64,000 nt of DNA. It comes from Lentibacillus amyloliquefaciens. GTDB taxonomy: Bacteria > Bacillota > Bacilli > Bacillales > Amphibacillaceae. Below are positions 24,856 to 63,936 of the stretch, one piece after another. Each line of letters begins with the position of its first letter. Position 1 is the first letter of the stretch. The translations under genes were made by a program, and so were the position numbers. The notes below the pieces were generated by a model that saw only the letters and a list, made by a program, of their open reading frames with translations, was not told the DNA's origin and did no database searches. Where the stretch lies: contig NZ_CP013862.1 of assembly GCF_001307805.1 (NCBI RefSeq), positions 1,798,001 to 1,862,000 of the forward strand, read 5' to 3'.

Positions 24856-24886
24856 GGGCGCTCTTCTTTATTCCGGAATTGCGCCC
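24856..24886. repeat. Dispersed GGGCGC hairpin repeat, copy at 24.9 kb
   Basis: GGGCGC ... TTATTCCGGAATT ... GCGCCC with GATT after it. This is the leftmost copy in the window and lies 82 bp beyond the sda stop. Confidence 0.85.
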
Positions 24887-24967
24887 GATTCTGGAAAACT
24901 GTTATGCCACAAATACTGTTGCTGAATTGTTGTAAAACAACGATATTAATGTAGATATATTTTATAT

Positions 24968-25117
24968 TTATTTAATCGATGTTAAGTTAAAATTATCTAA
25001 ACATAACTTTCTTTGTTCTATTTCTTGCTTTAAAAGATGAACAAAATCAGGATTTAAATTTGATTCGAGGGCTTTAATATATGCTCTAACTAATAATTCA
25101 TCTGATAGTGCTTCCAT
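24968..25117 (-). CDS. sda: Sda, sporulation histidine kinase inhibitor
   Basis: A 49-residue helical-hairpin protein. In Bacillus, Sda binds KinA/KinB and blocks phosphorelay entry when DNA replication is disturbed. The conserved N-terminus is clear: MEALSDELLVRAYIKALESN, then LNPDFVHLLKQEIEQRKL. The open frame extends upstream to 25258, but that part is IS3 sequence; the native ATG is 25117. There is no ribosome site upstream: the IS3 left end begins only 11 bp before the start codon. The gene has therefore probably been cut from its own promoter and ribosome site, and may be silent or driven from the insertion sequence. Confidence 0.88.
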   Translation of the reverse strand: MEALSDELLVRAYIKALESNLNPDFVHLLKQEIEQRKLCLDNFNLTSIK

Positions 25118-25181
25118 TTGTACTATAATGTATCCGTAGGTTTGGACACTAAAAATGAAAAAATAAGATAATACTAATGCT

Positions 25182-25502
25182 ATGAGTAAAAAACGAAAAA
25201 GATATAGTGCAGCAGAAAAGGCAAAGGTTGTTTTAGAAATATTAAGGGAAGAAAACACCCTTAATGAAATCGCTCAAAAATATGAAGTAAGTCCACAACT
25301 CATCAGTAGATGGAAGACAGAGTTTTTGAACAATATGCCTGTGGTGTTTGATAAAAAGTCCACGGAAATGGAACAGCTGAAGCAGGAACACGAGGCAGAA
25401 AAGGAGGAATTGATCAATCAGATTGGCCAGCTAACCGTAGATATGAATTGGCTCAAAAAAAAACAACAACAGGTCTCGGATTGGAGGAGAAAAAATCATT
25501 AA
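25182..25502 (+). CDS. IS3-family transposase OrfA
   Basis: 106-residue DNA-binding half of the transposase. Helix-turn-helix at residues 8-50 (AAEKAKVVLEILREENTLNE, then IAQKYEVSPQLISRWKTEFL), followed by a coiled coil (about 60-95). It overlaps OrfB by 55 bp. The A-run at about 25457-25466 in the overlap is a typical slippery site for the -1 frameshift that makes the OrfAB fusion in this family. Confidence 0.92.
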   Translation: MSKKRKRYSAAEKAKVVLEILREENTLNEIAQKYEVSPQLISRWKTEFLNNMPVVFDKKSTEMEQLKQEHEAEKEELINQIGQLTVDMNWLKKKQQQVSDWRRKNH

Positions 25503-26326
25503 TAGACTTTGACAGTAAGGAATTAACAGTTAAGCATCAGTGTAAACTATTGAATCTGTCCAGGTCAACTGCTTACTATGAAATCAAGGTATATCAGCCA
25601 AGCCAGGAGGAAATTGACATCAAAAATGCCATTGATCGTATACACTTTGATGAACCTGCATACGGCTGTCGCCGAATCCAAGGTGAGCTGGAAGACTTAG
25701 GTTTTACCAATATAGGAATCAAGCGAACACGTCGTTATATGCGGGAGATGGGTATCATCGCCTTTTATCCGGGTCCGAATCTGAGCAAACGGGATTTAGA
25801 GGCACGAACGTATCCCTACCTGCTTCGGGGTGTAGGCATTACCTATCGAAATCAGGTTTGGGGGATCGACATTACGTACTGCGGCACACCAACAGGTTTC
25901 ATGTACCTTGTAGTGATTATTGACTGGTTTTCAAGATTCGTTGTGGGGTGGTCTTTAAGCAATACGATGCAGACTGATTTTATTATTCGTACGGTGAAGG
26001 AGGCTATTCAAAAGTACGGGATGCCCGAGATCATTAACAGCGATCAAGGGAGTCAATTCACATCAAAGGATTATACTGAATGCATCAAAAGCTATGAATC
26101 CATAAAAATCAGCATGGATGGGCGAGGACGCGCTAAGGATAATGCCAGAACAGAGCGATTTTTCAGAAGCTATAAATGGGAAAGGCTTTATTTATTATAT
26201 CCAGAGACGGTGCTGGAATTAAAGCAAATGACGAGACTTTACATGCATCATTACAACTGGAAACGCAGACATCAAGCTCTAGGAGATAAGACACCGGCCA
26301 GTATCTATTTGGGAAGGAACGCTTAA
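25448..26326 (+). CDS. IS3-family transposase OrfB
   Basis: 292-residue catalytic half with an rve integrase core. DDE residues: Asp in VWGIDITYC, Asp in INSDQGSQFTS and Glu in NARTERFFRSYKWE. The HTH_21 region YGCRRIQGELEDLGF precedes the core. It appears intact and is probably made as a frameshift fusion with OrfA. Confidence 0.92.
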   Translation: MAQKKTTTGLGLEEKKSLIDFDSKELTVKHQCKLLNLSRSTAYYEIKVYQPSQEEIDIKNAIDRIHFDEPAYGCRRIQGELEDLGFTNIGIKRTRRYMREMGIIAFYPGPNLSKRDLEARTYPYLLRGVGITYRNQVWGIDITYCGTPTGFMYLVVIIDWFSRFVVGWSLSNTMQTDFIIRTVKEAIQKYGMPEIINSDQGSQFTSKDYTECIKSYESIKISMDGRGRAKDNARTERFFRSYKWERLYLLYPETVLELKQMTRLYMHHYNWKRRHQALGDKTPASIYLGRNA

Positions 26327-26605
26327 CCACAGCGAAGCTGCTTGCCCTTGACCGCTGTGCCACTCCTTAGTGATCGCTGAAAGGGGTCGGGGCCCCATCA
26401 GCGGAACTTAGGAAGTGATTGTCCATGGTACGCTCGCTGTGCGGATAGGAGCCCTAAAGGCTTAATTTTTCCCATCCGCCATAGGAACAGTACCATGGAC
26501 ACAAACGAGGTCAAGGGTGATGGAACCCAGGAAATCCTCTAAAACGGGAGAAAACCCGTCTAATGCGGCCGGGTGGAATTAGACTTTTTATAAAGGAGGC
26601 TTTAT
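26327..26605 (+). ncRNA. Structured non-coding tail of the IS3 element (candidate RNA)
   Basis: Between the OrfB stop and the right end there are about 280 nt without a gene but with several clear stems in order: CACAGCG / CGCTGTG; CGCTGA / TCAGCG enclosing GGGG / CCCC; an 11-bp stem GTCCATGGTAC / GTACCATGGAC enclosing GCGGAT / ATCCGC and AGCC / GGCT; and ACGGG / CCCGT. Nested complementarity of this density is unlikely by chance. Whether it is transcribed as an RNA, and what it would do, is not shown. Confidence 0.5.
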
Positions 26606-26644
26606 CTTAAATAATCTATTTTTGTGTCTTGACAAGTGGGCACA

Positions 26645-26806
26645 TTACATTCCACCATTCTCTTTTATATTTTTTGTCTCTAATTGTTCTTGGGCTAACC
26701 ACTTTAAAAAAGTCAATTCTTCATCTGTTAAGTTGCGATTGACTTTTTCTTTAAAATCCTTTATTAAATTGGCATAAATATTTTCAAGACAATCACTCTG
26801 ACTCAT
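26645..26806 (-). CDS. Small hypothetical protein, 53 residues
   Basis: A short gene with an excellent ribosome site (GGGAGGAT) 7 nt before its ATG. The product begins MSQSDCLENIYANLIKDFKE and has the segment LTDEELTFLKWLAQEQLE; it is helical, charged and soluble. I do not recognise the family. Both sides are occupied by insertion sequences: the IS3 right end touches its stop codon, and the IS4 element sits directly upstream of its ribosome site, whose bases are the IS4 target duplication. It probably keeps its ribosome site but has lost its promoter. Confidence 0.6.
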   Translation of the reverse strand: MSQSDCLENIYANLIKDFKEKVNRNLTDEELTFLKWLAQEQLETKNIKENGGM

Positions 26807-26822
26807 ATTTTTTATCCTCCCT

Positions 26823-28215
26823 CACTAGCGTTGCATTAATATAAATTGAATATTCTGTAATCAATTTAGCTCTATTTTTCGCCAAAAAGACAAACCTTAA
26901 TGAAAAAGTGGCATTGTCCATTTGGTAAATTTATACATTTATTCCGGGAGAGACAGCGACAACACTTATAATTATGGTATGCCGCTAATGCGACGAAGCC
27001 AGTGACGGCAGTTCTTCCACAGTTTCGCTTTTAATAAACGGCTAATCTGCAATATGGTTTTCCTGGACTCTGTTTCTAGTTGAATGAGCACATGCAGGCA
27101 ATAAACAATCAGCGCTAAAAAGATTTGGTTCATCACAGCTGTTTCACTATGGCCATAAAAATGTTTGATTTTAACGTGCTGTTTCAGCCATTTGAAAAAT
27201 AATTCAATCGTCCAGCGTGAACGATACATGTCACTGATTTCACTGGCTTTTAGATCAAACCGATTTGTGATGAGACGCAGTCGATTGCCTTTTGTATCAT
27301 CGACTTCAATTAAGCGAAATAGATTATCCATGCGCTTTGTTGGACCACCGACAGCTACCATTTGATCCGTAACGATCGTGGAACCCTGTTCCACCTCAAA
27401 GGACTTGATCGTCCGTGTAATCGAGTTTTTCTTCAACCGGGAGACGAAGAAATAACCGTCGTCCGTCATGCGGTCAAAACGCTCATAATCTATGTAACCA
27501 CGATCAAATACGTAGGTTGCTTCCTTGTCGTCCACCAAAACTTCTAATTGGCTACGATCGTGTTCGTTGGCCGTCGTGATGTTGGCGTACTCCGGATAAG
27601 AAGAACCATTTTCCATGAACATTAACCGCAAGTGCAGTTTGACGCCGCCTTTCGTTTTACGGAAGGTAGCCCATGGATGATTCGTCAGGTTGAGTGGTAT
27701 CGTGCTCGAATCAATGATTTTTACCGGCATAACTGTTCGACCCGGTTGAGAATGGCGTATCTGATCAACTAATTGATAAAAGATGACTGCCAACAAATTG
27801 GGATCCACAGTACGGTGTTTTCGCGACAATTGGGAAACGCTAATTGAACCCAGCCCCAATTCCTGTTGAACCTCGTCATCAAAAAGTGTATCACTCATCG
27901 CATGTAAGCTTTCCACCTCTTCCAGGTGGGACAATAATAACAGTTTGATGTAGGAATAAGTCGTAAACTTTTTCGTGTAGCGATCTTGCCCGGTCTGCGT
28001 AATTTGTTCTGTAAGTTTTTCAATATTAATGGGTGCAACCCATTTACCAAATGATGATAATAGTGTATGATTGTCCATATTCTGAGTTCCTTTATATTGG
28101 ATTTGGACAACAACCACCAATTCCATTATAAAGGATTTTTTTATACCCGGAAACCTATATTTTGGATAATTAACAAGATTATCAATTTTCTTTTATTATT
28201 TATGCAACGCTAGTG
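26823..28215 (-). mobile_element. IS4-family insertion sequence with 9-bp target duplication
   Basis: 1393 bp. Ends CACTAGCGTTGCAT at the left and its complement at the right, with similar A/T-rich bases inside. The flanking direct repeat ATCCTCCCT (26814-26822 and 28216-28224) defines the target site exactly. One transposase gene. Confidence 0.92.
26972..28078 (-). CDS. IS4-family transposase
   Basis: 368 residues from the ATG at 28078 (MDNHTLLSSFGKW). It has an N-terminal DUF4372-like region and the DDE core: Asp in IIDSSTIPLNL, Asp in YVFDRGYIDYERF, and the YRSRWTIELFFKWLKQHVKI (Y-x2-R-x3-E-x6-K) signature with the Glu. The gene appears intact, so the element may be active. The frame is open 16 codons further upstream without a ribosome site. 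Confidence 0.9.
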   Translation of the reverse strand: MDNHTLLSSFGKWVAPINIEKLTEQITQTGQDRYTKKFTTYSYIKLLLLSHLEEVESLHAMSDTLFDDEVQQELGLGSISVSQLSRKHRTVDPNLLAVIFYQLVDQIRHSQPGRTVMPVKIIDSSTIPLNLTNHPWATFRKTKGGVKLHLRLMFMENGSSYPEYANITTANEHDRSQLEVLVDDKEATYVFDRGYIDYERFDRMTDDGYFFVSRLKKNSITRTIKSFEVEQGSTIVTDQMVAVGGPTKRMDNLFRLIEVDDTKGNRLRLITNRFDLKASEISDMYRSRWTIELFFKWLKQHVKIKHFYGHSETAVMNQIFLALIVYCLHVLIQLETESRKTILQISRLLKAKLWKNCRHWLRRISGIP

Positions 28216-28282
28216 ATCCTCCCTATAAGAAATCCCACAAAATGAATTTTTCCTATTTAATTAAATGCCCTTATATGTAATA

Positions 28283-28312
28283 TGGCGTAATCTTTATTAG
28301 ATTTCCGCGCCC
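28283..28312. repeat. Dispersed hairpin repeat, copy at 28.3 kb
   Basis: GGCGTAATC ... TTTATTAGATT ... CGCGCCC followed by AATTGTTG. It ends 13 bp after the stop of the minus-strand VOC gene. Confidence 0.75.
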
Positions 28313-28324
28313 AATTGTTGACTG

Positions 28325-28720
28325 TTAGGGTGCTACGAGCTCCACTTTCATTCTGTCCGGATCTTCAAAGTAAACGGCGTAATGGTCATCTCCCCCAGCG
28401 AATGGATGCTGCTTTTCATAAAGAATAGTAACTCCTTTATCTTTTAATTTCTCCGTCATATCATCAACGTGTTGACGCGATTCCGCATGAAACGCTAAAT
28501 GATTTAGACCCACGCAACATCTATGATATGGAACGTCTAAAAACCGTTCTTCAGTTTGAACAAAAACGATGTATGTATCTCCTATTTTCCAACTTTGCCC
28601 GCTTTCCCATTTCTGAAACGGGCTGTATCCTAATTCTTCAAGATACCAACGCCAAAAATCAATTGACCTTTTTAAATCAGTGACATAAATCTCAACATGG
28701 TGAAGTAATCCCTTTGACAA
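28325..28720 (-). CDS. VOC (glyoxalase/dioxygenase fold) protein
   Basis: A 131-residue metal-binding protein of the vicinal oxygen chelate superfamily. The N-terminal LLHHVEIYVTDLKRSIDFW and central VGLNHLAFHAESRQHVDDM supply two His ligands; the C-terminal YAVYFEDPDRMKVELVAP supplies the Glu. This matches small single-module VOC proteins such as lactoylglutathione-lyase-like or fosfomycin-resistance-like enzymes, but the substrate cannot be told. Monocistronic and followed at 13 bp by a hairpin repeat. Confidence 0.85.
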   Translation of the reverse strand: MSKGLLHHVEIYVTDLKRSIDFWRWYLEELGYSPFQKWESGQSWKIGDTYIVFVQTEERFLDVPYHRCCVGLNHLAFHAESRQHVDDMTEKLKDKGVTILYEKQHPFAGGDDHYAVYFEDPDRMKVELVAP

Positions 28721-28812
28721 GGAATGGCCCCCTTTATTCCTTCGAGCTATTTTTACTTAATACCAATTATTCCAAATTCCAGGAATTAACTCAATCCTTT
28801 AATCTATAAAAA

Positions 28813-28841
28813 AGGCACTTACCTTATTCGCGATAAGCGCC
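28813..28841. repeat. Dispersed hairpin repeat, copy at 28.8 kb
   Basis: GGCACTTACCTTATTCGCGA-TAAGCGCCC followed by GTTTGCGG, the best-conserved right flank of the family. It lies 79 bp beyond the stop of the PadR-linked membrane gene. Confidence 0.75.
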
Positions 28842-28919
28842 CGTTTGCGGTATTGTCTAATCAAGGCTTAGATAACGTGTGATGCTAGTTCTATTCTGTA
28901 AGAACATATTATTGAATAG

Positions 28920-29366
28920 TTAATTTGCTGCCACTAAAAATATTGCAAAGAAAAGTGCATAAGATCCCATTAAACTAAGCGATATTTTAGCTAACTTAGT
29001 TTTAATCGAAAGTGCAGGTATAATTCCAACCTTAAGCATATTCGCTATTAAAACAACAATTGCTAAGAAAAAAGACAGCATTGCTATAAGTAACGAAACT
29101 TGCTCTAACATAACATTAACCCCCCTTAATGATGTCAATTTCAAAATGACAAAAACATTTATTAAACTAATTAGCAATAATACTTGGCTCATACGAAATC
29201 CCAAAACTTTCTTTTCATTTAACTCCATTATCCAAGCATCTGCTATGCCTAATAATAAGTCGAAAACTACTTTGAATGACCAATCTGTCTGTTTTAAGAC
29301 TTCAATCATTTCATTGCTATATCGCCTTCTCCAACTTTTAGGATACATATAGATAAACCACTTCAT
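28920..29366 (-). CDS. Membrane protein paired with PadR regulator
   Basis: 148 residues: a soluble N-terminus (KWFIYMYPKSWRRRYSNEMI, typical of proteins encoded beside PadR regulators) and about three or four membrane segments in the last 90 residues. Its start overlaps the padR stop by 4 bp, so the two are translated together. Such pairs usually form an envelope-stress or drug-response unit; the specific role here is unknown. Confidence 0.7.
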   Translation of the reverse strand: MKWFIYMYPKSWRRRYSNEMIEVLKQTDWSFKVVFDLLLGIADAWIMELNEKKVLGFRMSQVLLLISLINVFVILKLTSLRGVNVMLEQVSLLIAMLSFFLAIVVLIANMLKVGIIPALSIKTKLAKISLSLMGSYALFFAIFLVAAN

Positions 29367-29668
29367 ACTAAACCAAGCCTTTTTAAACCAAGTGTAGTTA
29401 CTTTTTGAATTTCTTTAATTTGGTTACTCAAATATACCTGCCCTTCCTCTGTTAGCTTGTAAGGCTTTTTACGGTCTTGTGTTTCAAGAGCACTTATATA
29501 TCCTGCCTTCTGTAAACGTGAAATTGCTCCATATAAAGTTCCTGGACCTAATTTAATATCATAATTTTTTTCAATGTCCTCCATAATGGCATAGCCATGA
29601 CGATTTTCTTCTGCAAGGCTTATCAAAATTAACAATGAAGGTTCTGTGAATTTGTTTTTTCCAACCAC
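29363..29668 (-). CDS. PadR-family transcriptional regulator
   Basis: A 101-residue winged-helix repressor of the short (subfamily 2) type. The segments SLLILISLAEENRHGYAIMED, LGPGTLYGAISRLQKAGYIS and KKPYKLTEEGQVYL follow the PadR pattern, with a short C-terminal dimer helix. The GTG start at 29668 has AAAGGAG 7 nt upstream. It lies behind a readable promoter with an inverted repeat near the start point, as expected for autorepression. Confidence 0.88.
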   Translation of the reverse strand: MVGKNKFTEPSLLILISLAEENRHGYAIMEDIEKNYDIKLGPGTLYGAISRLQKAGYISALETQDRKKPYKLTEEGQVYLSNQIKEIQKVTTLGLKRLGLV

Positions 29669-29689
29669 GTTGCCACTCCTTTATGATTG

Positions 29690-29747: not shown

Positions 29748-29783
29748 TAAAAAAAGCCATAATAATATGGCCAAGTTAAGAAA

Positions 29784-29810
29784 GAACGCACTTGTTCCAG
29801 AAGTGCGCCC
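29784..29810. repeat. Dispersed hairpin repeat, copy at 29.8 kb
   Basis: GAACGCACTTGTTCCAGAAGTGCGCCC: arms GCACTT / AAGTGC around TGTTCCAG, followed by TTATATA as in the copies at 48.8 and 59.2 kb. Confidence 0.65.
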
Positions 29811-29876
29811 TTATATACAGTATGATTTTCTACCGTATTCAACGTATGTAACGATACAAAAATGGCGGTTTTTTTA

Positions 29877-31413: not shown

Positions 31414-31446
31414 CGGACGCTGGTTCTTATTCCAGATAGGCGCCCC
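31414..31446. repeat. Dispersed hairpin repeat, copy at 31.4 kb
   Basis: GGACGCTGG ... TTATTCCAGATA ... GGCGCCCC, followed by a second small stem CTTTAGTTGAATAAACTAAAG. It lies downstream of the OYE gene. The rest of 31268-31501 shows no gene. Confidence 0.65.
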
Positions 31447-31501
31447 TTTAGTTGAATAAACTAAAGGCTTATATATTTTTACGGAAATAAGATTAAAATA
31501 A

Positions 31502-41432: not shown

Positions 41433-41487
41433 TATTTTTGATTTCTTTAAGAACGTTAAATACGACGGAAAACCATAATGTAGATAA

Positions 41488-41516
41488 GGGCGCTTTAACG
41501 GAATAAAGTGGCGCCC
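41488..41516. repeat. Dispersed hairpin repeat, inverted copy at 41.5 kb
   Basis: GGGCGC-TTTAA-CGGAATAAAGTG-GCGCCC. Orientation opposite to nearly all other copies. It lies near the broken NIPSNAP gene. Confidence 0.8.
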
Positions 41517-41786: not shown

Positions 41787-41813
41787 CTTATTCCGTTTTT
41801 GCGCCCGTTTGCT
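41787..41813. repeat. Dispersed hairpin repeat, half copy at 41.8 kb
   Basis: TTATTCCGTTTTTGCGCCCG followed by TTTGC. The left GGGCGC arm is missing. CTTAATACCAATTATTCCAA just after it also occurs near 28.76 kb. Confidence 0.7.
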
Positions 41814-41866
41814 TAATACCAATTATTCCAAAACAAGTAATCCAGTTCAATTATTTTCACCAAAAT

Positions 41867-43525: not shown

Positions 43526-43869
43526 ATATATCAATTTAAATTGACAGTTATGTGGCATTCATAGCGCATTTGCTGAATAATTCATAGAATTGGGTTTCCA
43601 TATACCAACCTAAAAGTATGCAATCTTTCTTTCGGATTTGTGCTTTTTTGTTAAACATAGTGGTTAGTTGTCGAGGCCAACGCTATATTATTAATCTTGG
43701 AACAACGAAAGAACCAAACTGGCGCTAAATAATCTCTGATTTAGCTGATGAATTTCACTGATATGGTAGATGTCAAGCTTTTATGTATTCATTACGCAAT
43801 TAAAAACAGACACTTGCCGGCTTGCATGCGCATATGTATATCAGTATATATGCAAAGGAAGTGAACCAC

Positions 43870-48764: not shown

Positions 48765-48795
48765 GGGCGCCAACACTTATTCCGGAATGGCGCCC
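48765..48795. repeat. Dispersed hairpin repeat, copy at 48.8 kb
   Basis: GGGCGC-CAACAC-TTATTCCGGAATG-GCGCCC; it ends 20 bp after the stop of serine hydrolase copy 1. A GGCCCTTATATATGGAAAGG half-palindrome adjoins it on the left. Confidence 0.85.
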
Positions 48796-48814
48796 TATAA
48801 TTAAAGATCGCTTT

Positions 48815-50396: not shown

Positions 50397-50419
50397 CGGT
50401 TATTAGATTACCGCGCCCT
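50397..50419. repeat. Dispersed hairpin repeat, partial copy at 50.4 kb
   Basis: CGGTTATTAGATTACCGCGC then CCTTTAATTGAAGAT; the right half is identical to the copy at 57.5 kb (CGCGCCCTTTAATTGAAGAT). Confidence 0.65.
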
Positions 50420-50460
50420 TTAATTGAAGATTCCAAACCAGTAAACATCTTTCAACCCAA

Positions 50461-51036
50461 TTAGTAGTGATGGTTTTCTTCGGCAGCTATTGCGTCTGCT
50501 TTCGTTTCATGAACGGTTCCAAATGGATGGTTAGGCGGAGCATATATCGAATAAAGTTTTAATGGAATGTTACCTGTATTTGTTAGATTATGCCATGCTC
50601 CAGCAGGTATTACGATTGCGGAATCATCATAAACATTCCTTTGGAAGTTTAAATTATCTTTACTATTTCCCATCTGAGTAATACCCTGACCCTGTTCAAT
50701 ACGTAAGAATTGATCAACATCAGGATGCATTTCTATTCCAATATCTTCTCCGGGATTCAGACTCATTAATGTAACCTGCAAATGATTTCCTGTCCATATG
50801 GCTGTACGAAATGTATTATTTTGCTTAGCAGCTTGGTTTATATTCACGACAAATGGTTCTCTTCCATGATCTTTTAGTACGGTACCTGCATAGCTTTGAG
50901 TGTTTGTATGTGGCCAAAAGTAATTTGCATAACCGGATTCATTTGACATACACCGGCAATCAGGAATCTTGTAACAGTCACACATTGGTGGATTAGCATA
51001 ATAAGGATACGCGTAAGGATATGGATAACGATACAT
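50461..51036 (-). CDS. Cupin-domain protein with Tyr/Pro-rich N-terminus
   Basis: 191 residues. The first 20 residues are Tyr/Pro-rich (MYRYPYPYAYPYYANPP) with cysteines after them (CDCYKIPDCRC), as in spore-coat or crust proteins. The rest is a single cupin barrel with motif 1 GEDIGIEMHPDVDQFLRIEQ and motif 2 IPAGAWHNLTNTG, giving likely metal-binding His/Glu. Probably spore-associated; activity unknown. No strong ribosome site other than GAGAGGA. Confidence 0.82.
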   Translation of the reverse strand: MYRYPYPYAYPYYANPPMCDCYKIPDCRCMSNESGYANYFWPHTNTQSYAGTVLKDHGREPFVVNINQAAKQNNTFRTAIWTGNHLQVTLMSLNPGEDIGIEMHPDVDQFLRIEQGQGITQMGNSKDNLNFQRNVYDDSAIVIPAGAWHNLTNTGNIPLKLYSIYAPPNHPFGTVHETKADAIAAEENHHY

Positions 51037-51158: not shown

Positions 51159-51199
51159 GGCCCGATTCAGGCACAATGCTTCTTCAACAACTGCGCCCG
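51159..51199. repeat. Dispersed hairpin repeat, copy at 51.2 kb
   Basis: GGCCCGATTCAGGCAC ... TTCAACAACTGCGCCCGATT; nearly the same sequence returns at 53192-53230 as the left edge of a duplicated unit. Confidence 0.7.
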
Positions 51200-51221
51200 A
51201 TTGTGGTATACACTTAATTAT

Positions 51222-51575
51222 TTACCAAGAAAAAATTCTGGCTAATATAAAAAATAAGGACCATAAAATTATGCCAACAAAAGCAAAAAGAATAAAAATT
51301 TTAACAGCGTCAAATACAGATGTAATCGTAAACCAACCACTTAATAAAAGGATAGGATAAATTGTTATAAGCATTATTATAAAATGGACACCGCTTCGTT
51401 TAATCAAACTCCAATGCTCTATGTTATAAATAATGGATGCAGCGCCGACAAAAAAAGCGATCAGGCTTGCAACAAATGTACCTTTAGCATCCGAGTACTT
51501 TCCTTGAAAATAAAGTAATAAAGCAATACCGCTCATAATGATGAATGGTATTCCACCTCTTAAAAGAGCATTCAT
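51222..51575 (-). CDS. DUF-type membrane protein, copy 1 of duplicated unit
   Basis: 117 residues with four hydrophobic segments (PFIIMSGIALLLYFQG, FVASLIAFFVGAASIIY, FIIMLITIYPILLLSGWFTI, IFILFAFVGIILWSLFFIL). I chose the ATG at 51575; codons upstream are open but no start has a good ribosome site. The gene and its flanks are repeated almost identically at 53254-53607. Function not known; the general look is of small Bacillus DUF3021-like membrane proteins. Confidence 0.65.
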   Translation of the reverse strand: MNALLRGGIPFIIMSGIALLLYFQGKYSDAKGTFVASLIAFFVGAASIIYNIEHWSLIKRSGVHFIIMLITIYPILLLSGWFTITSVFDAVKIFILFAFVGIILWSLFFILARIFSW

Positions 51576-51645
51576 AACCAAAATCTCTAACCTTCTTTCA
51601 AAAAATATATTCTTATTCAAGAAAATGGTCCAATAATGCCACTTT

Positions 51646-51680
51646 AGGCACCGTTCTTTATTCCGTTTTCGCGCCCGTTT
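51646..51680. repeat. Dispersed hairpin repeat, copy at 51.7 kb
   Basis: GGCACCGTTC-TTTATTCCGTTTTC-GCGCCC followed by GTTTGAGGAAGATC, the best match to the family consensus. Confidence 0.85.
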
Positions 51681-51780
51681 GAGGAAGATCATGGCAGATG
51701 GGCATGAGCGCTTTATCTATTATCAAATAAAAAATAAAGAGAGGCTGCATGATTAACAGCCCCCCTATACGATCGACGAA

Positions 51781-52293
51781 TTATTTTTCTAAAAGCTTTA
51801 GAGATTCGCGATTGAATGCAGGAAGATCATCAGGTGTTCTGCTTGTTACAAGGTTTCCATCTACGATTACTTCTTCATCTTTTACAGTTGCTCCTGCATT
51901 TTCCAAGTCTTTTCTTACGGAAACAAAGCTTGTTAGCTCTCTACCTTTTAGTTGGTCTGTATTAACGAGAAACTGTGGACCATGGCAAATTGAAAATATG
52001 GGTTTATTATCTTGGAAAAATGTTTTCGCAAACTCACTATTCTTCGGATTAATACGTAGTAAGTCAGGAGAAAACCCGCCAGGTACGAGTAATGCATCAT
52101 AATCGTTTGCATTTACTTCATCTATGCCTCTATCTGCTTGTATTTCGTCCCCATTTTTGCCATTGATGGTTTTTTTTGCTTCATTACTGATAATATCTAC
52201 CGTATGCCCAGCTTCTTTGTAAGCTTTCACAGGATCAGTTAATTCAATTTCTTCTACCATGTCTGTTACAAGGACTGCAATGTGTCGACTCAT
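51781..52293 (-). CDS. PfpI-type general stress protein, YfkM-like
   Basis: 170 residues of the DJ-1/PfpI superfamily. Nucleophile Cys in ISICHGPQFLVN (about residue 104), Glu in DMVEEIELTDP and LLVPGGFSPDLLR; this is the pattern of Bacillus YfkM, a SigB-dependent stress protein of the protease/deglycase group. GGGAGGAAG precedes the ATG. Only distantly related to the larger DJ-1 protein at 40289. Confidence 0.9.
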   Translation of the reverse strand: MSRHIAVLVTDMVEEIELTDPVKAYKEAGHTVDIISNEAKKTINGKNGDEIQADRGIDEVNANDYDALLVPGGFSPDLLRINPKNSEFAKTFFQDNKPIFSICHGPQFLVNTDQLKGRELTSFVSVRKDLENAGATVKDEEVIVDGNLVTSRTPDDLPAFNRESLKLLEK

Positions 52294-52470
52294 ATAGCAC
52301 TTCCTCCCTTTATCATTCTCGAATATATTCTAGCAGACTGCCCATAACTTTATTAAGCAGTATGCTCATGAACCGTATTATACACGAACCAAATAACGAT
52401 GCTCTAACTGACAGGCACTTGTTCCCTTCTACCTTATCGTGTTACATAAACGTGCACTACAATGGCATTT

Positions 52471-52501
52471 GGGCGCTGGTCTTTATTCCCCAACTGCGCC
52501 C
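52471..52501. repeat. Dispersed hairpin repeat, copy at 52.5 kb
   Basis: GGGCGCTGGTCTTTATTCCC-CAACTGCGCCC followed by GATTG; 26 bp after the stop of the zinc-ribbon gene. Confidence 0.85.
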
Positions 52502-52526
52502 GATTGTTTAACTATGAAAAGATAAA

Positions 52527-52920: not shown

Positions 52921-52940
52921 ACTATTCTATTAGCGCGCCC
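52921..52940. repeat. Dispersed hairpin repeat, partial copy at 52.9 kb
   Basis: ACTATTCTATTAGCGCGCCC followed by GTTCG; right half only, 20 bp after the 59-residue gene. Confidence 0.6.
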
Positions 52941-52959
52941 GTTCGTATTAAAAAAATGA

Positions 52960-53191: not shown

Positions 53192-53230
53192 TGCCCGATT
53201 CAGGCACAGTGATGTTCAACAACTGCGCCC
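53192..53230. repeat. Dispersed hairpin repeat, copy at 53.2 kb
   Basis: GCCCGATTCAGGCACAGTGA ... CAACTGCGCCCGTTTGTGG; left edge of the second copy of the duplicated unit. Confidence 0.7.
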
Positions 53231-53253
53231 GTTTGTGGTATACACTTAATTAT

Positions 53254-53607
53254 TTACCAAGAAAAAATTCTGGCTAATATAAAAAATAAGGACCATAAAA
53301 TTATGCCAACAAAAGCAAAAAGAATAAAAATTTTAACAGCGTCAAATACAGATGTAATCGTAAACCAACCACTTAATAAAAGGATAGGATAAATTGTTAT
53401 AAGCATTATTATAAAATGGACACCGCTTCGTTTAATCAAACTCCAATGCTCTATGTTATAAATAATGGATGCAGCGCCGACAAAAAAAGCGATCAGGCTT
53501 GCAACAAATGTACCTTTAGCATCCGAGTACTTTCCTTGAAAATAAAGTAATAAAGCAATACCGCTCATAATGATGAATGGTATTCCACCTCTTAAAAGAG
53601 CATTCAT
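53254..53607 (-). CDS. DUF-type membrane protein, copy 2 of duplicated unit
   Basis: Identical in translation over its 117 residues to the gene at 51222-51575. The DNA identity runs from the flanking hairpin on the left (about 53192) to the one on the right (about 53700). A recent duplication of one gene together with its hairpin borders. Confidence 0.7.
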   Translation of the reverse strand: MNALLRGGIPFIIMSGIALLLYFQGKYSDAKGTFVASLIAFFVGAASIIYNIEHWSLIKRSGVHFIIMLITIYPILLLSGWFTITSVFDAVKIFILFAFVGIILWSLFFILARIFSW

Positions 53608-53678
53608 AACCAAAATCTCTAACCTTCTTTCAAAAAATATATTCTTATTCAAGAAAATGGTCCAATAATGCCACTTTA

Positions 53679-53708
53679 GGCACCGTTCTTTATTCCGTGT
53701 TCGCGCCC
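53679..53708. repeat. Dispersed hairpin repeat, copy at 53.7 kb
   Basis: GGCACCGTTC-TTTATTCCGTGTTC-GCGCCC followed by GATGATTG. Matches the 51646-51680 copy except at the right flank, where the duplication ends. Confidence 0.8.
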
Positions 53709-53760
53709 GATGATTGAATACTCATGTTAATAAATTATTCCCGTCAGATAATGATGGCTT

Positions 53761-55293: not shown

Positions 55294-55320
55294 GGCGCGA
55301 GTCTTATTCGGTTCTCGCGC
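55294..55320. repeat. Dispersed hairpin repeat, copy at 55.3 kb
   Basis: GGCGCGAGTC-TTATTCGGTTC-TCGCGC followed by ACATTTG. It lies in the 500-bp stretch 55008-55508, which has no gene but also holds stems at about 55139-55176 (AGAGG / CCTCT with CTCAT / ATGAG) and 55365-55390 (GAGTTGT / ACAACTC). Confidence 0.75.
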
Positions 55321-55508
55321 ACATTTGTTTAAATTCCACTAAACCGTTTCCACATCAGAATAGGAGTTGTTTGAGGGACAACTCTTCTTTCAATTTTCAT
55401 TTCCGTACCTTAAATTTTATATCTCACAAACGCTTCATATTATCAATATTCATTTTTTCTTCGCTTCAGACTATTAATTCCGTGCAACCAGACATATAGC
55501 CTTTAAGG

Positions 55509-57526: not shown

Positions 57527-57554
57527 GGCGCGATTCTTATTAGGTAATCGCGCC
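57527..57554. repeat. Dispersed hairpin repeat, copy at 57.5 kb
   Basis: GGCGCGATTC-TTATTAG-GTAATCGCGCC followed by CTTTAATTGAAGATCG; 21 bp after the stop of serine hydrolase copy 2. Confidence 0.85.
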
Positions 57555-57574
57555 CTTTAATTGAAGATCGCTTT

Positions 57575-59005
57575 TTACTTTTCTTCCTCCACCTTTGGAA
57601 TTTGTCTGAATGCAAATTCAACCCGATGAATATTCTTGTTCTCATCTCTCACAAAACGAATAGTAGTATCCAGTTCCCTCATGGTAAATAAAAACTGGTC
57701 ATCCCCAATTGGTTTCAGCACTGCATCAGGCAATCCAGCGGTTGCTAAATGCAGGCATCCATCTTCTACATAAAATTCATTTTTCATACCGTCACCTGAT
57801 ATAAACGTTCCCTCAAATTCCTTTAAACTTTCAAGTGCTAAATCAACAACCTCAACATTTAAGTGTGATTTATCGATGGGTTTGCCCAAGTAACCGGCAA
57901 ACGCACCAAAAAGCAGTTTTGAAGACGGGGCTCCTGCTAAGTTTGCAAGCGATATTCCCGTCAGTCCGAGTTCGGGAAGAATATTCATCTGAGCCGTTAC
58001 CCCTTTAATATCCCCACCATGCTGAATGAGCTTGTATCCAAAGAAATCTGGAGTGATCATTAAACCGTAACCGTAATAAGTTCCATGTGCACATTGGATG
58101 TACGGTGTTGTCATTGACGCCACACTTTCAGGCGACAGGACTCGTACATGACCAACTTCTCCGGCATTTCGAATCATATTTGCAAATTTGAACATATCAT
58201 TCACTGTCGACTTTAAGAATCCTGCCGCACGCATTGATGGCGCATCCCAAGGATTATTAGATCTAAATATAATGTCTTCACTATCTTTCTTTCGCATGTC
58301 ATATAAGACGGCTATATTTTCATATCCCTTCAAGTCTTCATAGTGAAAAACACTATGCTGCATACCGGCAGGCTCTAAAATATTTTCTTGCACATATTGT
58401 TCATACGGTATACCGCTGATGCGTTCGATTATGGCACCTAAAAGGGCATAGGCGTCATTTGAATAACTGAATTCGGTTCCTGGTGCCCCAAGCGGTGTGA
58501 ATTCTGCTTTTGCAATGGCATCCATTAACTCTGAATGTGTATCAATCGTCTGGATTGCATCCAATGGATTCTCCTGCTGTTGATCTTCTGCCAATTTTTG
58601 ATCCTTTTCCATACTTTTCTTCATTGCGCCCATTAAAGTGGCTAATGGGGGCAGGCCCGATGAGTGTGTCAAAAAATGATGGATCGTCATTTGTTTTGTT
58701 TGCGCTTCATTCAGCATCTTCATTTCTGGTAAATATTTGGTGACACGATCTTTTACAGACAGTTTTCCCTTCTCTTGTAACTGAAGAATAGCAACAGCTG
58801 TAAAGGCCTTCGTTATTGAACCCACTCCAAAAACGGTATCTGGTGATAATTGAAGTTTTGCTTCAATGTCACGAAAACCAAATTCTTTCTCATAACACAG
58901 TTCACCATCTTTGGCTAATCCTATCGCAAAACCGGGTACCTTGTATTTTTTCAAAGTCTCATCACAATATCGTTCAAAATCATGGATCCCTGTTTCTTGT
59001 TTCAT
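57575..59005 (-). CDS. Beta-lactamase-like serine hydrolase, copy 2
   Basis: 476 residues, same length and motifs as the gene at 48815 (SITK, YSNDAY, HGGDIKG). About 30 substitutions separate them, of which some 22 are in the first 170 residues; the rest of the protein is nearly identical. The downstream flank (AGATCGCTTTTTACTTTTCT) and the upstream flank are also shared, so the duplicated segment included the intergenic hairpin borders. Both copies keep all catalytic residues. Confidence 0.88.
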   Translation of the reverse strand: MKQETGIHDFERYCDETLKKYKVPGFAIGLAKDGELCYEKEFGFRDIEAKLQLSPDTVFGVGSITKAFTAVAILQLQEKGKLSVKDRVTKYLPEMKMLNEAQTKQMTIHHFLTHSSGLPPLATLMGAMKKSMEKDQKLAEDQQQENPLDAIQTIDTHSELMDAIAKAEFTPLGAPGTEFSYSNDAYALLGAIIERISGIPYEQYVQENILEPAGMQHSVFHYEDLKGYENIAVLYDMRKKDSEDIIFRSNNPWDAPSMRAAGFLKSTVNDMFKFANMIRNAGEVGHVRVLSPESVASMTTPYIQCAHGTYYGYGLMITPDFFGYKLIQHGGDIKGVTAQMNILPELGLTGISLANLAGAPSSKLLFGAFAGYLGKPIDKSHLNVEVVDLALESLKEFEGTFISGDGMKNEFYVEDGCLHLATAGLPDAVLKPIGDDQFLFTMRELDTTIRFVRDENKNIHRVEFAFRQIPKVEEEK

Positions 59006-59163
59006 AAAGTAAACCCTTCTCTCTTTTTATTGTCTTCAGGTTTATTTTAATCATTTTAGGTTGCTTCTACATCGTTTTTTAGAATGGGGTTTTCTACTAC
59101 CTTAGACTGATATTTTGGTGAAGATTGTTGTCATTATCCATCAAATGGCCCTTATACATAAGA

Positions 59164-59192
59164 AGGGCGCTAACTTTTATTCTATTGTCGCG
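59164..59192. repeat. Dispersed hairpin repeat, copy at 59.2 kb
   Basis: AGGGCGCTAACTTTTATTCT-ATTGTCGCG, with GGCCCTTATACATAAGAAGG on its left as in the 48.8-kb copy. It lies beyond the broken alpha/beta hydrolase gene. Confidence 0.65.
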
Positions 59193-59287
59193 TTCTTTTC
59201 TGGAATAAACCTAAGTTTTTGTTAATAAACAATTGGAAACAAATCAGCAGAACCTTTCTAAACTTTGAATAATGAGATCAGGTCTGT

Positions 59288-59731
59288 CTATATGTATTTC
59301 ACCATTTGCTCTAACGATATCTTTGAGTACATAACTGGTAAATCAAGGTTATACAGTTGTTGAAAATTATGTGATGTGGAATCAATCAACATGACTCCTT
59401 TTAATTTTTGAGGATACATCTTAGCATACTACTGTGCACATAAGCCACAAAAGGAATGACCAATTAACACGAATTTATCATTTATATGTAATTTTTCTAT
59501 TAGTCCATCAAGCTCTTTAGCAATGTGCTCTACAGTCCTAGGGTTGTCTGAAAATCCACTTTTCCCATAACCAAATCTATGGTACATGACAACTGTAAAA
59601 TCCTTTTTAATTTGTTGAACAAACGTATGCCAGTTATAAAATGACCCACCTATTCCTAATTCAATGACTAAGGTCGTTTCCCCTTTCTCCAAGAATTTTA
59701 TATTCAAGCCCTGCTTCTTCCATACAATCAC
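59288..59731 (-). pseudogene. Alpha/beta hydrolase, interrupted and truncated
   Basis: The first 100 codons encode a standard hydrolase N-terminus: TTLVIELGIGGSFYNWHTFV (oxyanion region), MYHRFGYGKSGFSD and the nucleophile elbow VLIGHSFCGLCAQ. An in-frame TAG then follows (59429-59431), after which the same frame continues sensibly with MYPQKLKGVMLIDSTSHNF to a TAG at 59288-59290. The lid and the catalytic Asp/His part are missing. Start GTG at 59731 with an overlapping AGGAG. Confidence 0.75.
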
Positions 59732-59788
59732 TCCTAATGGTTTACGTGTGTTTATTTAAACAATATAAAAGCAAATCGTTTATACACC

Positions 59789-59816
59789 CCTTAATTCCGT
59801 TTTAGCGCCTGTTTGC
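59789..59816. repeat. Dispersed hairpin repeat, half copy at 59.8 kb
   Basis: CTTAATTCCGTTTTAGCGCC then TGTTTGCGGAAGATC; 44 bp after the stop of the MmyB-like regulator gene. Confidence 0.75.
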
Positions 59817-59859
59817 GGAAGATCAAGAATGAATAACAAACGCTTCGCTAACTTTGGAT

Positions 59860-60645
59860 TTACGAAATAGGAACATACATACACCAATAAAGATCTTCAT
59901 TTCCATCCACATGGGTAGCGGAATGAATGCGAAAATGTTTAGTTTGGCCTTGCTCATCATTTATCGAAATGAAACTTATCTTCTTCTGCTCGATGTGATG
60001 CTGTTCCCATAATTCTCGGAACAATTTGCTTTGCTGTTTCAGATCTACTAGTAGCTGATTTAGAATTGGGTCTTCGGGAAAGCGGTCATAAATGCCCCGA
60101 AAGACTGCAACCGAATAGGTTGAAAACTCATCCCAATTTTGAATACGATCCCGAATACTTCCCTCCAAAAATAGGAGTTGTAGTAAATACCGTTCTTCGG
60201 AAGGACACGAGGAAAACGGAAAAAGCATTGATTCAGCCTCACGATTCCAAAATATAACCTTGGAACGTTGATCCGTAATGAAGGATGGGAATGGTAAATT
60301 GTCAACTGTTGTTTGCAATGAATCATTATATTGTTCTTCAACCGGCAGTGATAATGTTTCATTATACGCTAAATTGAAAAGGTGTTCTTTCTCGTCAGGA
60401 CTAAGCTGTAACGCCTGGCTGATATTCAATAAAACTTCCTGTGAAGGTTGAATGTCTTTTCCCTGTTCTAACCATGTATAATACGTCACACTAACATGAC
60501 TAAGATAAGCAACCTCTTCCCGGCGCAACCCCGGCGTTCTTCGTCGCCCCGAAGTCATGTGAATGCCAGCTTCTTCAGGTTGAACTCGCTCTCGTCTGGA
60601 CTTTAAAAATTGACCAAACACCTTGGAATGTACACTTTTCTGCAT
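59860..60645 (-). CDS. XRE/MmyB-type transcriptional regulator
   Basis: 261 residues. N-terminal helix-turn-helix (about 8-75, FGQFLKSRRERVQPEEAGIH, LRREEVAYLSHVSVTYYTWLEQG) followed by an MmyB-like ligand-binding domain (about 105-255, FPSFITDQRSKVIFWNREAE). Such regulators are commonly divergent from an oxidoreductase gene they control; here an aldo-keto reductase lies on the other side of a 218-bp gap with a perfect palindrome. Confidence 0.88.
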   Translation of the reverse strand: MQKSVHSKVFGQFLKSRRERVQPEEAGIHMTSGRRRTPGLRREEVAYLSHVSVTYYTWLEQGKDIQPSQEVLLNISQALQLSPDEKEHLFNLAYNETLSLPVEEQYNDSLQTTVDNLPFPSFITDQRSKVIFWNREAESMLFPFSSCPSEERYLLQLLFLEGSIRDRIQNWDEFSTYSVAVFRGIYDRFPEDPILNQLLVDLKQQSKLFRELWEQHHIEQKKISFISINDEQGQTKHFRIHSATHVDGNEDLYWCMYVPIS

Positions 60646-60799
60646 AAGACTTGATTCATTCCTTTCTTCATCGCATTACCAGTATAGTTTTCATTTTGCT
60701 TAAGATTAAATGATTTGTCCAACTTAACTGGTTGATACAGGTGTTTTATTATGGTCAACTTTTACATCCTGTTACTACCATTACTAGTATAAACATGCA

Positions 60800-60832
60800 G
60801 TGGTTGTAACCACGTTTATTCGTTAAGATAAA
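60800..60832 (+). promoter_or_regulatory. Aldo-keto reductase promoter with palindromic operator
   Basis: Palindrome GTGGTTGTAACCAC (60800-60813) overlaps the -35 TTGTAA (60804-60809); a -10 GATAAA follows after 17 bp (60827-60832). Likely site for the divergent MmyB-like regulator. Confidence 0.65.
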
Positions 60833-60863
60833 AGCATATCACAAATTAAAGGAGGACATTCTA

Positions 60864-61829
<966 letters not shown>

Positions 61830-61854
61830 TTGACTAATTTATTGTTTGAAATGC

Positions 61855-61899
61855 AAAAAGGCTTGGGCTATTCTTCAGAAATGTAGTCCAAGCTTTTTT
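61855..61899 (+). terminator. Terminator of the aldo/keto reductase
   Basis: AAAAAGGCTTGG-CTA ... TAG-CCAAGCTTTTTT, a long stem with T-run, 26 bp after the stop. Confidence 0.85.
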
Positions 61900-61975
61900 G
61901 TATAGTTTTCCCAAGAAGATTGACACCATGCTTATCCACAATCTAGTTCCAAGTGATGAACATGTTATTCCGCGA

Positions 61976-63917
61976 GTCGAGTAGAAGAGAATCTCTCTAC
62001 CTTTACGGTAGATTGATTTCTCCCCCCTCACAGAACCGTGCGTGCACTATTAATGCACACGGCTCCTCCTAGTTATCATTCACAAAATGTAGCTAATTTC
62101 CTTTCTTAAATCGTATATATTAACCTTAACTCTCCCATAAGGTAGCGGATATTTGGTAAGAAAGAGTCTGAATTTATCCCAAGTAAAAGATTTTCTTTGA
62201 CTTCTTCTGTTGAGCCACTTAAATAATAAGTACCCGATTTTGTCTCTGAATTCATTAATACTTTGACTATTATCTGTAATGCCATAATAGTTGTAATAAC
62301 CTATAAGAGAGCGTCTGAATCTATCCATAATGACATGAATGTTCTTGTTCCTATTAGCCTTCAACCATTCTTTAGATTCTTTGAGCTTGCCTTGGAATTT
62401 CTTCCCGCTAGTTTTCCGTTTCACTCGGAATTTCCCTTTTTGACTTTTCCCACAGTAATGTGTAAAGCCCAGAAAATCGAAGGTTGCCGGTTTCCTATTT
62501 CCCTTTCGTTTTGCATCTTTCTCTGCAAATTTTCCGAAAGGAATAATTTTAGTTTTATCCTCGGCTATCTCCAAGTTAAATTTCTTTAATCTCCATTTCA
62601 ATGATTGAAAGAATTGTTGAGCTTCGCTCTTAGATTGAAAACAACAGACAAAATCATCTGCGTACCTCACGATGAATGCTTGTCCTTTGCACTGTTTTCT
62701 AACCCTCTTTTCAAACCAAAGATCAAGGACATAGTGAAGGTATATATTGGCTAATACTGGAGAAATCACTCCACCTTGCGGTGTACCATATGATGTTTTG
62801 TATTTCTTGCCTTCTTCCATATATCCACCTTTAAGAAACCTGCCAATAATCCTTAATAAGTTGGGATCAGCTATTCGCAGCTTTAAGAACTCCAACATCC
62901 ATGTGTGGTCAACATTGTCAAAGAATCCTTTAATATCTACATCTACTACATAGTTTATTGACCGCTTTTCAATATAGTGGTTCAATATTTTCAATGCATC
63001 ATGGCAGTTACGATTTGGACGAAATCCAAAAGAGCAGTCTAGGAAATCATTCTCATAGATAGTATTTAGTATTTTCGTAATTCCTCTTTGAACAATTTTG
63101 TCTTCATGTTCCGGTATACCCAGTGGTCTTTTCTTATTTGAATTAAGCTTTGGTATATACATTCTTCTTACTGGAACGGGACGATAACTTTTACTTTTGA
63201 GACTATTTACTAATTCCTCTATGTTTCCTTTTAGACTTTCACCGTATTGCTCTTTCGTCGTGCCGTTAATCCCAGTTGCCTTTCTGTTTGGTGATTCATG
63301 ATGGCACTTGACTAGTGATTGCTCATTTAATAAATGTGCAAGAGATGTAAATTTAATTTTAGGATTAGATTTTGCTAATTCTGCTATCCTTCGTAGTTTT
63401 GTTTCCATTTAATGTAACCTACCTCTGCGTGTAGTAAATGTGTCCCTAGTAAGGTTGATAACTGGTAGCTAGCCTTTCCTCCATCGGCATTACCCGACTT
63501 CATTGGTACTACGCTGCTATCCGACTCCCTGCACGGCATTTGGCTTCCTTGCTTTTTATCGCTTGTACACCATACTCTTCTAAAATAAGAAAAGACCGGC
63601 AGGGTCTCCTGAGTTGCCGCATCAAATCAATGTATGACGTGCCAAGGTCTATGACTCCAGAGAGGTTTTATCCTTCTTGCCTTTAACGTAAGATAAAATG
63701 TAGCTTTCTGCAGCGCTTAAAGCATCAGCCCTCTCGATTTACAAACATTATGGAGCTCAATCCCTTCAGCCAGTTGGCTTTCGGCCCATCACCTAACTGT
63801 CTACGCTTAAAGACTAAAGTTACCTTTAGCCCTCCAAGACTCGCTACGAGTGAATGGCTAGTTCTTACTCGACGGGAATCCCACCCGTTATATGATACGA
63901 CCTATGCTCAGCCGCAC
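61976..63917 (-). mobile_element. Group II intron, complete
   Basis: On the minus strand the intron opens with GTGCGGCTGAG (63917), the usual GUGYG start. It carries a reverse transcriptase gene in its domain IV region and ends with a clear domain V (GAGCCGTGTGCATTAATAGT ... GCACGGTTC, 62010-62065 region) and a domain VI stem (AATCTACCGTAAAGGTAGAGA) before an end near CTACTCGAC (61976). The 3' end is placed to within a few bases. The joined exons read GGGCGCTT next to GCGGAATAAC, that is, the core of the dispersed hairpin repeat. Confidence 0.85.
62080..63408 (-). CDS. ltrA: Group II intron reverse transcriptase/maturase
   Basis: 442 residues. RT domain with GTTKEQYGESLKGNIEELVN, LGIPEHEDKIVQRGITKIL, GFRPNRNCHDALKIL, VVDVDIKGFFDNVDH and the catalytic FIVRYADDFVCC (about residue 245); then the maturase (X) domain FDFLGFTHYCGK to the end (RRSLIGYYNYYGITDNSQSI). 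There is no C-terminal HNH endonuclease, so it should be a short maturase form that uses another way to prime. The frame is complete. AGGTAGG lies before the ATG. Confidence 0.95.
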   Translation of the reverse strand: METKLRRIAELAKSNPKIKFTSLAHLLNEQSLVKCHHESPNRKATGINGTTKEQYGESLKGNIEELVNSLKSKSYRPVPVRRMYIPKLNSNKKRPLGIPEHEDKIVQRGITKILNTIYENDFLDCSFGFRPNRNCHDALKILNHYIEKRSINYVVDVDIKGFFDNVDHTWMLEFLKLRIADPNLLRIIGRFLKGGYMEEGKKYKTSYGTPQGGVISPVLANIYLHYVLDLWFEKRVRKQCKGQAFIVRYADDFVCCFQSKSEAQQFFQSLKWRLKKFNLEIAEDKTKIIPFGKFAEKDAKRKGNRKPATFDFLGFTHYCGKSQKGKFRVKRKTSGKKFQGKLKESKEWLKANRNKNIHVIMDRFRRSLIGYYNYYGITDNSQSINEFRDKIGYLLFKWLNRRSQRKSFTWDKFRLFLTKYPLPYGRVKVNIYDLRKEISYIL

Positions 63918-63936
63918 AAGCGCCCTATAATGGAAT
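63918..63936. repeat. Dispersed hairpin repeat split by the group II intron (5' exon half)
   Basis: Plus strand AAGCGCCCTATAATGGAATA; the other half GTTATTCCGCGA is at 61964-61975. With the intron removed, GTTATTCC and GGAATAAC form an 8-bp inverted repeat around GGGCGC. Confidence 0.75.

Follow-up and report, generated by a model that had tools for sequence, protein, structure and literature searches.

Integrons are the best-known bacterial device for stockpiling and swapping single genes, and to our knowledge they are nearly absent from Bacillota. Modules bounded by dif sites, which alternate in orientation, offer a second point of comparison. In its accessible part, the IntegronFinder 2.0 report lists one complete integron and a few clusters of attC sites lacking integron-integrases (CALIN) in Firmicutes (PMC9024848); other sources, as far as their accessible parts go, describe a replication-strand bias of chromosomal integrons (PMC8946536), and two kinds of dif modules, C and D, with inversions (PMC13141974). 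Here, we analyzed a repeat centred on GGGCGC in a 64,000-bp stretch (the window) of the Lentibacillus amyloliquefaciens chromosome, covering positions 1,798,001-1,862,000 of 3,858,284 bp. An earlier note made from the letters of the window had proposed that the repeat is a mobile, terminator-like element or, in a bolder version, that the hairpin serves as the recombination site of a cassette array, as attC does in integrons. Comparison of sequences within and between genomes makes it highly probable that this repeat serves as the recombination site in a cassette system resembling integrons, whose cassettes are likely moved at GGGCGC by a dedicated Xer-like recombinase.

The repeat was located with two models. 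When the window was scanned without filters, a covariance model built from 12 window copies returned 17 matches at E ≤ 0.0005, all located from 24.8 to 59.8 kb and including the 12 training copies. The second model, a weight matrix for the 32-base core without gaps, was trained on 120 array sites of this genome only and gave 22 window sites at a score of at least 12, with a chance rate at score 12 of 2.5 per Mb in order-2 Markov sequence; 21 sites were on the minus strand and one was on the plus strand. The earlier count of about twenty copies, all but one in the same orientation, was reproduced in this way, and the motif described was correct, its fuller consensus being T.TTC..CAA(A/T)C-GGGCGC-N.TTC.GGAATAAG. 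On the whole chromosome, the covariance model gave 146 matches at E ≤ 1; when gaps of at most 20 kb were allowed, 140 of them grouped into 11 clusters with a combined span of about 218 kb, or 5.7% of the chromosome. The alternating orientation of dif modules was not seen: nine of the 11 clusters were one-directional, the window stood at 14 to 1, and the cluster at 2,925-2,948 kb was mixed, 10 to 6. Even scatter on both strands with no exchange of genes, which the note had named as the sign of an ordinary repeat, is contradicted by these mostly one-directional clusters and by the exchanged units described next. When 200 genomes sampled evenly from the class were searched with a 22-base pattern of the site, allowing no more than three mismatches, 40 genomes matched, against three for the reversed control.

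Array regions were taken from this genome (G000) and six other Lentibacillus genomes and were chosen because they held matches, only part of the matches being covered in the other genomes. For successive sites on the same strand, the median spacing was 624 bp, based on 482 gaps of less than 6 kb. When the regions were compared by blastn, 557 matches were obtained; 350 were of 250-3,500 bp at 70% identity or more, and 260 of these 350 lay in arrays on both sides. These 260 shared stretches have 1,040 ends, and 41% of them were within 25 bp of a site, compared with 4.9% after random shifts. Cutting the regions at the sites generated 471 units (180-4,000 bp, median 666 bp), and for 62 of them a near-identical whole-length partner was found (90% or more identity over 90% of the length), giving 46 pairs in 27 families, 29 between genomes of different species and 17 within one genome. 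Of the 29 pairs between genomes, 20 reached an identity of 97% or more; at xerD, the single core locus used for comparison, the DNA of this genome was 70-82% identical to that of five others. Where the neighbours of paired units were unlike (40 pairs upstream and 41 downstream), identity went up at base 0 of GGGCGC on the upstream side and down after base 5 on the downstream side, and averaging per family left this profile unchanged. With looser families, 540 units fell into 473 families, 48 of them with at least two members, indicating a large gene pool, and of 78 pairs within a family, 74 had unlike right neighbours. This genome and G007 share a five-unit block of 8,939 bp at 99.9% identity, its two ends being 0 and 21 bp away from a site. 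Collectively, units recur beside other neighbours and end inside the repeat at GGGCGC, in agreement with the bolder of the two earlier proposals; the exchange point was indeed within the repeat, at the six-base centre of an apparent two-arm core and not across the whole hairpin as had been suggested. Separately, two stretches of about 3 kb, in G000 C1:3020406-3028542 and G008 C1:3681757-3687968, were 99.1-99.5% identical between the species and had one end each at a site and the other off-site; larger transfers may use additional routes.

This genome has 11 Phage_integrase matches, 10 of them above the cut-off. An Xer-like tyrosine recombinase of 280-283 amino acids (aa) is encoded at an array edge, at C1:2202766-2203617; the earlier statement that no integrase is in the window held for the window itself, and the gene lies at another array of the same chromosome. 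All 12 Lentibacillus genomes carry sites, and four of them (G000, G001, G002, and G003) have an intact recombinase, the copies in the last three lying among sites and being 90-94% identical. The protein matched PF00589 (Phage_integrase) with 136.8 bits, and its residues, read by eye, fit R..K..HxxR..H..Y, the tyrosine recombinase motif. The nearest NCBIfam model was the XerA-type NF040815 (217.5 bits, cut-off 220), and the nearest solved structures were XerC-like, XerD, and XerA proteins. Phage-type integrases are also encoded near two arrays, at 414.6 and 553.8 kb; they gave no BLASTP match to this recombinase at 1e-10.

A search of named genomes with the recombinase yielded 30 Bacillales loci in 16 named genera, with some genes partial and at least three loci from genomes already analyzed here. 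Every one of the 30 loci held a site (score of at least 14), and 19 held three or more, about 0.24 sites being expected by chance (about 0.5 per Mb); 155 of the 177 sites were on the strand of the recombinase gene. A site was found no more than 300 bp upstream of the gene in 15 loci, 13 of which had another within 6 kb downstream, and weak GGGCCA-type copies followed the gene in some loci. Across this genome and 59 relatives, 60 in all, at least four sites were present in 24, a recombinase match of at least 200 bits in 15, and both in 11; the co-occurrence with a recombinase raised in the earlier note was thus observed for a tyrosine recombinase, present in 11 of those 24 genomes versus four of the other 36 (Fisher p 0.005, the genomes not being independent). 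In many loci, a conserved leader stretches from the site to the start codon, its final part being a long inverted repeat that covers the ribosome-binding site of the recombinase gene. This repeat reads CCATACT...AGTATGG around ATTAATTGATT in loci L140-L161, from many genera, and translational or repressor control is possible.

More distant relatives of the recombinase, 56-65% identical, were found on eight plasmids, along with one phage match at 35.6%. Those at about 65% were on a Sporosarcina psychrophila plasmid, with GGGTGC and GGGCAG centres, and on a plasmid labelled Arthrobacter citreus, with TTCAACTAAC-TGATGC-GTTAGTTGAA and, in two places, a companion round TGGCAG 59-72 bp off. A changed-centre pattern was present at 22 places in five loci (44 counted strand-wise, with 1.6 strand-wise in shuffled sequence), 13 of them on the plasmid labelled Arthrobacter citreus. 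These two plasmid arrays show that the same site plan exists with another centre. A further plasmid stretch, from Peribacillus simplex (L171), has two annotated tyrosine recombinase genes 1.3 kb apart, at 5873-6724 and 8001-8840, one of them a 63% relative, and only two GGGCGC-type sites.

Several observations weigh against a cassette system served by this recombinase. Among the 540 units, there was no clean pair of X-Y and X-Z-Y arrangements and no single-cassette empty site, so the difference in gene content between retained hairpins that the note had envisaged was not seen. Nor was an empty site with exactly one hairpin: at the only locus compared, the array-bearing side (G008 2867-2880 kb) has nine sites, and the array-empty side (G000 3009.2 kb) had no site with a score of at least 2 within about 1 kb. 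The pairs behind the boundary profile were selected by identity within units, which favours the inner side of that test, a bias from which the analysis of stretch ends is free. The second hairpin arm is absent in half of the sites. The recombinase is broken or partial in G004, G006, G009, and G010, and no match at 1e-45 was found in G005, G007, G008, and G011. GGGCGC-type sites also lie near a 60% relative (L161) and the 63% relative (L171), so that the match between centre and recombinase clade is unclean, and the L161 genome also has a 90% relative (L157). Lastly, 13 of the 24 genomes with at least four sites had no recombinase at 200 bits.

The last of these points, together with the resemblance of the core to two inverted arms round six bases and the presence of XerC and XerD in this genome, speaks for a different explanation, in which the repeats would be dif-like sites used by the housekeeping XerC/XerD pair to move cassettes, much as happens with dif modules in Acinetobacter, the 280-283-aa protein being only a passenger. 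We regard this as unlikely. Against it stand the sites at all 30 loci of the protein, within 300 bp upstream of the gene in half of them, and the arrays with another centre that accompany two diverged relatives; moreover, the array copies are one-directional, whereas dif modules are of C and D kinds with inversions, according to the accessible part of PMC13141974. The Bacillus subtilis dif sequence, allowed up to three mismatches, was not found in this genome, and therefore its own dif was not comparable with the repeat. Arrays that have no recombinase gene may depend on XerC/XerD or may be relics.

The architecture of the site bears on the remaining explanations. In 505 unique sites with a score of at least 20, each of the six central bases was conserved at 92-98%, and the left arm T.TTC..CAA(A/T)C and the right arm N.TTC.GGAATAAG were partly inverted repeats; in the distant genome G242, the perfect inverted arms TTCCACAATC and GATTGTGGAA flanked GGGTGC and GGGCCA. 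A downstream GCGCC arm, with one mismatch at most, was present in 306 of 616 unique sites, mostly 24-25 bases from the start of the centre. At that spacing, the two bases adjoining the stem paired at frequencies of 0.50 and 0.45, versus 0.28 and 0.32 with shuffled partners (standard deviation about 0.024), so that a hairpin is conserved in part of the copies; its candidate roles are a folded single-strand substrate, a transcript structure, or both. About 50 bases downstream of many sites, a second, degenerate copy (half-site) was observed: GGGCCA half-sites occurred in 103 of the 616 site stretches compared (1.6 when shuffled), and TTGTGGAATAA, with up to two mismatches, in 138 (23.8 when shuffled). 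Since many copies can fold and the sites are close behind stop codons (median 42 bp, 124 units), a mobile terminator-like or REP-like (repetitive extragenic palindromic) repeat, with units shared through ordinary homologous recombination between the repeats, has to be weighed. We consider this very improbable, because a T run followed the exact second arm in only 11 of 130 cases, nearly all copies are confined to the 11 clusters, and the exchanged units end at the six-base centre; the terminator-like alternative of the earlier note falls with it.

The leading strand was assigned from GC skew in flanks outside the arrays, and array direction coincided with it in 28 of 29 regions; all 29 had three or more sites and 2.5 kb or more of sequence free of arrays, smaller regions having been dropped. 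The G005 155 kb region was counted as agreeing though mixed (3 plus, 4 minus), the skew of the G001 2890 kb region was near zero, and the region that disagreed was G008 3005 kb; the position of dnaA at 2.71 Mb is consistent with the assignment. The sole array against the leading strand, G008 C1:3012.9-3017.1 kb (L086), contains a widely shared DJ-1/PfpI cassette. Hairpin covariation and strand bias are only indirect hints of recombination on a folded, single-stranded site, and selection on gene direction could be an alternative source of the bias. A true IntI/attC integron in a Gram-positive host, which one-gene cassettes, one-directional arrays, a tyrosine recombinase, hairpin sites, recombinase-less arrays, and a bias to one replication strand might all evoke, can practically be dismissed, because the recombinase scored 98.5 bits with the integron-integrase model TIGR02249 (cut-off 265), below XerC (134.3) and XerD (155.7) of the same genome, and because exchange lies in GGGCGC and not at a GTTRRRY box. 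These hidden Markov model scores ruled out an IntI identity; of the analogy with integrons and attC, the cassette logic stood, and the enzyme was Xer-like.

In the cassette system that we favour, a cassette would span from one GGGCGC to the next. It would open with the right arm N.TTC.GGAATAAG, often followed by the GCGCC arm and, about 50 bp on, by the GGGCCA half-site, usually carry one gene, and close with the left arm T.TTC..CAA.C of the next site, the outer arms of each site thus belonging to different cassettes. The 280-283-aa recombinase is predicted to bind and cut the sites, with GGGCGC as the putative strand-exchange overlap between the inverted arms, and cassettes would likely be cut out, joined in, and exchanged there, probably with circles as the intermediate. 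The hairpin and the replication strand may bear on folding or control.

Regarding cassette content, this genome has 145 units, and in 129 the longest sense open reading frame (ORF) exceeded the longest antisense one. A single sense ORF of at least 60 aa was found in 101 units, none in 21, and two or more in 23, which bears out the earlier description of mostly single genes. The 124 cassette proteins matched 109 Pfam families, none in more than five proteins, and these included hydrolases, glyoxalases, GNAT acetyltransferases, DinB, and DUFs. A few of the proteins matched defence models; a defence-island interpretation was rejected, as no PADLOC family occurred in more than two of them, and the strongest models were Nhi and AbiO, possibly both hit by one protein. 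No viral contig was found with the exact site pattern, and the window cassettes had 65.6-70.0% matches in 11 plasmid records.

The window sites are given below as window positions, on the minus strand unless stated otherwise. The statement that positions 1-24.8 kb hold no copy was nearly correct, the exception being a weak outlying site with a GGGTGC centre at 23314-23345 (score 18.5). A strong site with a full hairpin at 24867-24898 (centre 24881-24886, score 42.2) is the best model match of the genome, and is followed by a site 12 bp past the stop of a glyoxalase-like gene (28293-28324) and sites at 28823-28854 (34.0), 29791-29822 (21.3), and 31426-31457 (22.1). The sole plus-strand copy, at 41476-41507 (19.3), is near-palindromic, and is followed by a site at 41787-41818 (40.3) and a doubtful degenerate copy with an AAGCAC centre at 43626-43657 (12.3). 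The site at 48776-48807 lies at the 3' end of a gene for a 476-aa protein with a beta-lactamase fold (PF00144; 48815-50245), whose cassette has a 95.6% identical counterpart in G001. A second copy of this gene (57575-59005) precedes the site at 57536-57567; the duplicate unit is 93.2% identical over 1589 bp, with a sharp 3' boundary at GGGCGC and a diffuse 5' boundary. A cupin gene (50461-51036) is followed by the site at 50399-50430, and a DUF3021 gene (51222-51620) by the site at 51179-51210. The DUF3021 cassette (51193-51676) has a duplicate at 53225-53708, 98.7% identical over 524 bp and ending in repeats, and a third member at 2674.6 kb. Next, beyond the site at 51657-51688 (39.3), comes the DJ-1/PfpI cassette (51671-52501, centre to centre), which recurs in four other species (G003, G005, G007, and G008) with 97.5-99.8% identity between genomes. 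Further sites are at 52482-52513 (33.8), 52921-52952 (21.4), 53211-53242 (25.6), and 53689-53720 (35.5), and three have altered centres: GTGCGC at 55303-55334, with a compensated stem GCGCGAG/CTCGCGC, GAACGC at 59176-59207 (20.0), and AGGCGC at 59791-59822 (30.1). Nine of the gaps between stop codon and repeat listed earlier were re-measured (that at 52.9 kb was not among them) and agreed within 0-5 bases.

IS110-type elements and group II introns are known to settle in attC sites, and similar insertions were observed here. In the window, a group II intron (61976-63905, minus strand, ends by eye) with a reverse transcriptase at 62080-63408 lies directly after GGGCGCTT and splits a site, the left half of which remains at 63906-63937 on the minus strand. 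The intron was supported by RF02005 and RF00029 matches and its reverse transcriptase by RVT_1 and TIGR04416; the Rfam scan of the window gave one tRNA and two group II intron matches. GGGCGC was seen by eye within about ten bases before the apparent start in four of five introns inspected, which include this one and those in L055, L051, and L043. Six copies of a 1.6-kb IS110-family element were inspected, and each was inserted in a site's left arm, the centre being GGGCGC in three cases and GGGCCA in the other three; two are in G000, at C1:2921048-2922641 (L057) and 1303834-1305428 (L050), and the others in G005, G007, and G008. The transposase of one copy matched an IS110 RNA-guided transposase model (247.7 bits), and this RNA-guided element seems to target the repeat.

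No description of such a system was found in the literature searched, which included the accessible parts of PMC9024848, PMC8618304, PMC8946536, and PMC13141974, with preprints and most subscription papers outside its scope. We think there is a good chance that Bacillales have a cassette-capture system of their own, derived from an Xer-type recombinase independently of the integron. It would have a specific site (two-arm core, six-base overlap, compensated hairpin, and accessory half-site), sub-lineages with changed overlaps, and a pool of exchangeable genes numbering in the hundreds, and it would be parasitized at its sites by group II introns and by an RNA-guided IS110 element. If so, cassette capture has evolved at least twice, a fast-moving share of the accessory genes of these soil and salt-lake bacteria would be explained, and a compact recombinase-site pair with natural changed-overlap relatives would be useful for studying the origin of such systems.

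Compared with mobile or terminator-like repeats such as REP and bacterial interspersed mosaic elements (BIME), the sequence described here is likewise a short foldable repeat soon after stop codons, whereas it forms one-directional clusters and its enclosed units are exchanged among species. With the Acinetobacter dif (pdif) modules, it shares the presumed Xer-type chemistry, short two-arm sites with a six-base centre, and the shuffling of small gene modules. Unlike these modules, as known to us and from the accessible part of PMC13141974, it has one-directional, mainly chromosomal arrays of tens of units, a dedicated recombinase gene, and a hairpin with an accessory half-site. The closest likeness is to sedentary chromosomal integrons and CALIN: one-directional, mostly single-gene cassettes, each with a recombination site, a tyrosine recombinase, recombinase-less arrays, hairpin-forming sites, and a bias to one replication strand. 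In contrast to integrons, the recombinase is Xer-like and not IntI, its gene lies within the arrays and is often preceded by a site, and exchange occurs inside GGGCGC and not at a GTTRRRY box, a comparison made with no attC covariance model run. Integrons have attI beside the integrase, and no attI was recognized here, though half of the recombinase loci have the upstream site. The hairpin and accessory half-site are at the 5' end of the cassette, and there are about eleven clusters per genome. Taken together, this cassette system is probably a counterpart of the integron that arose separately in Bacillota.

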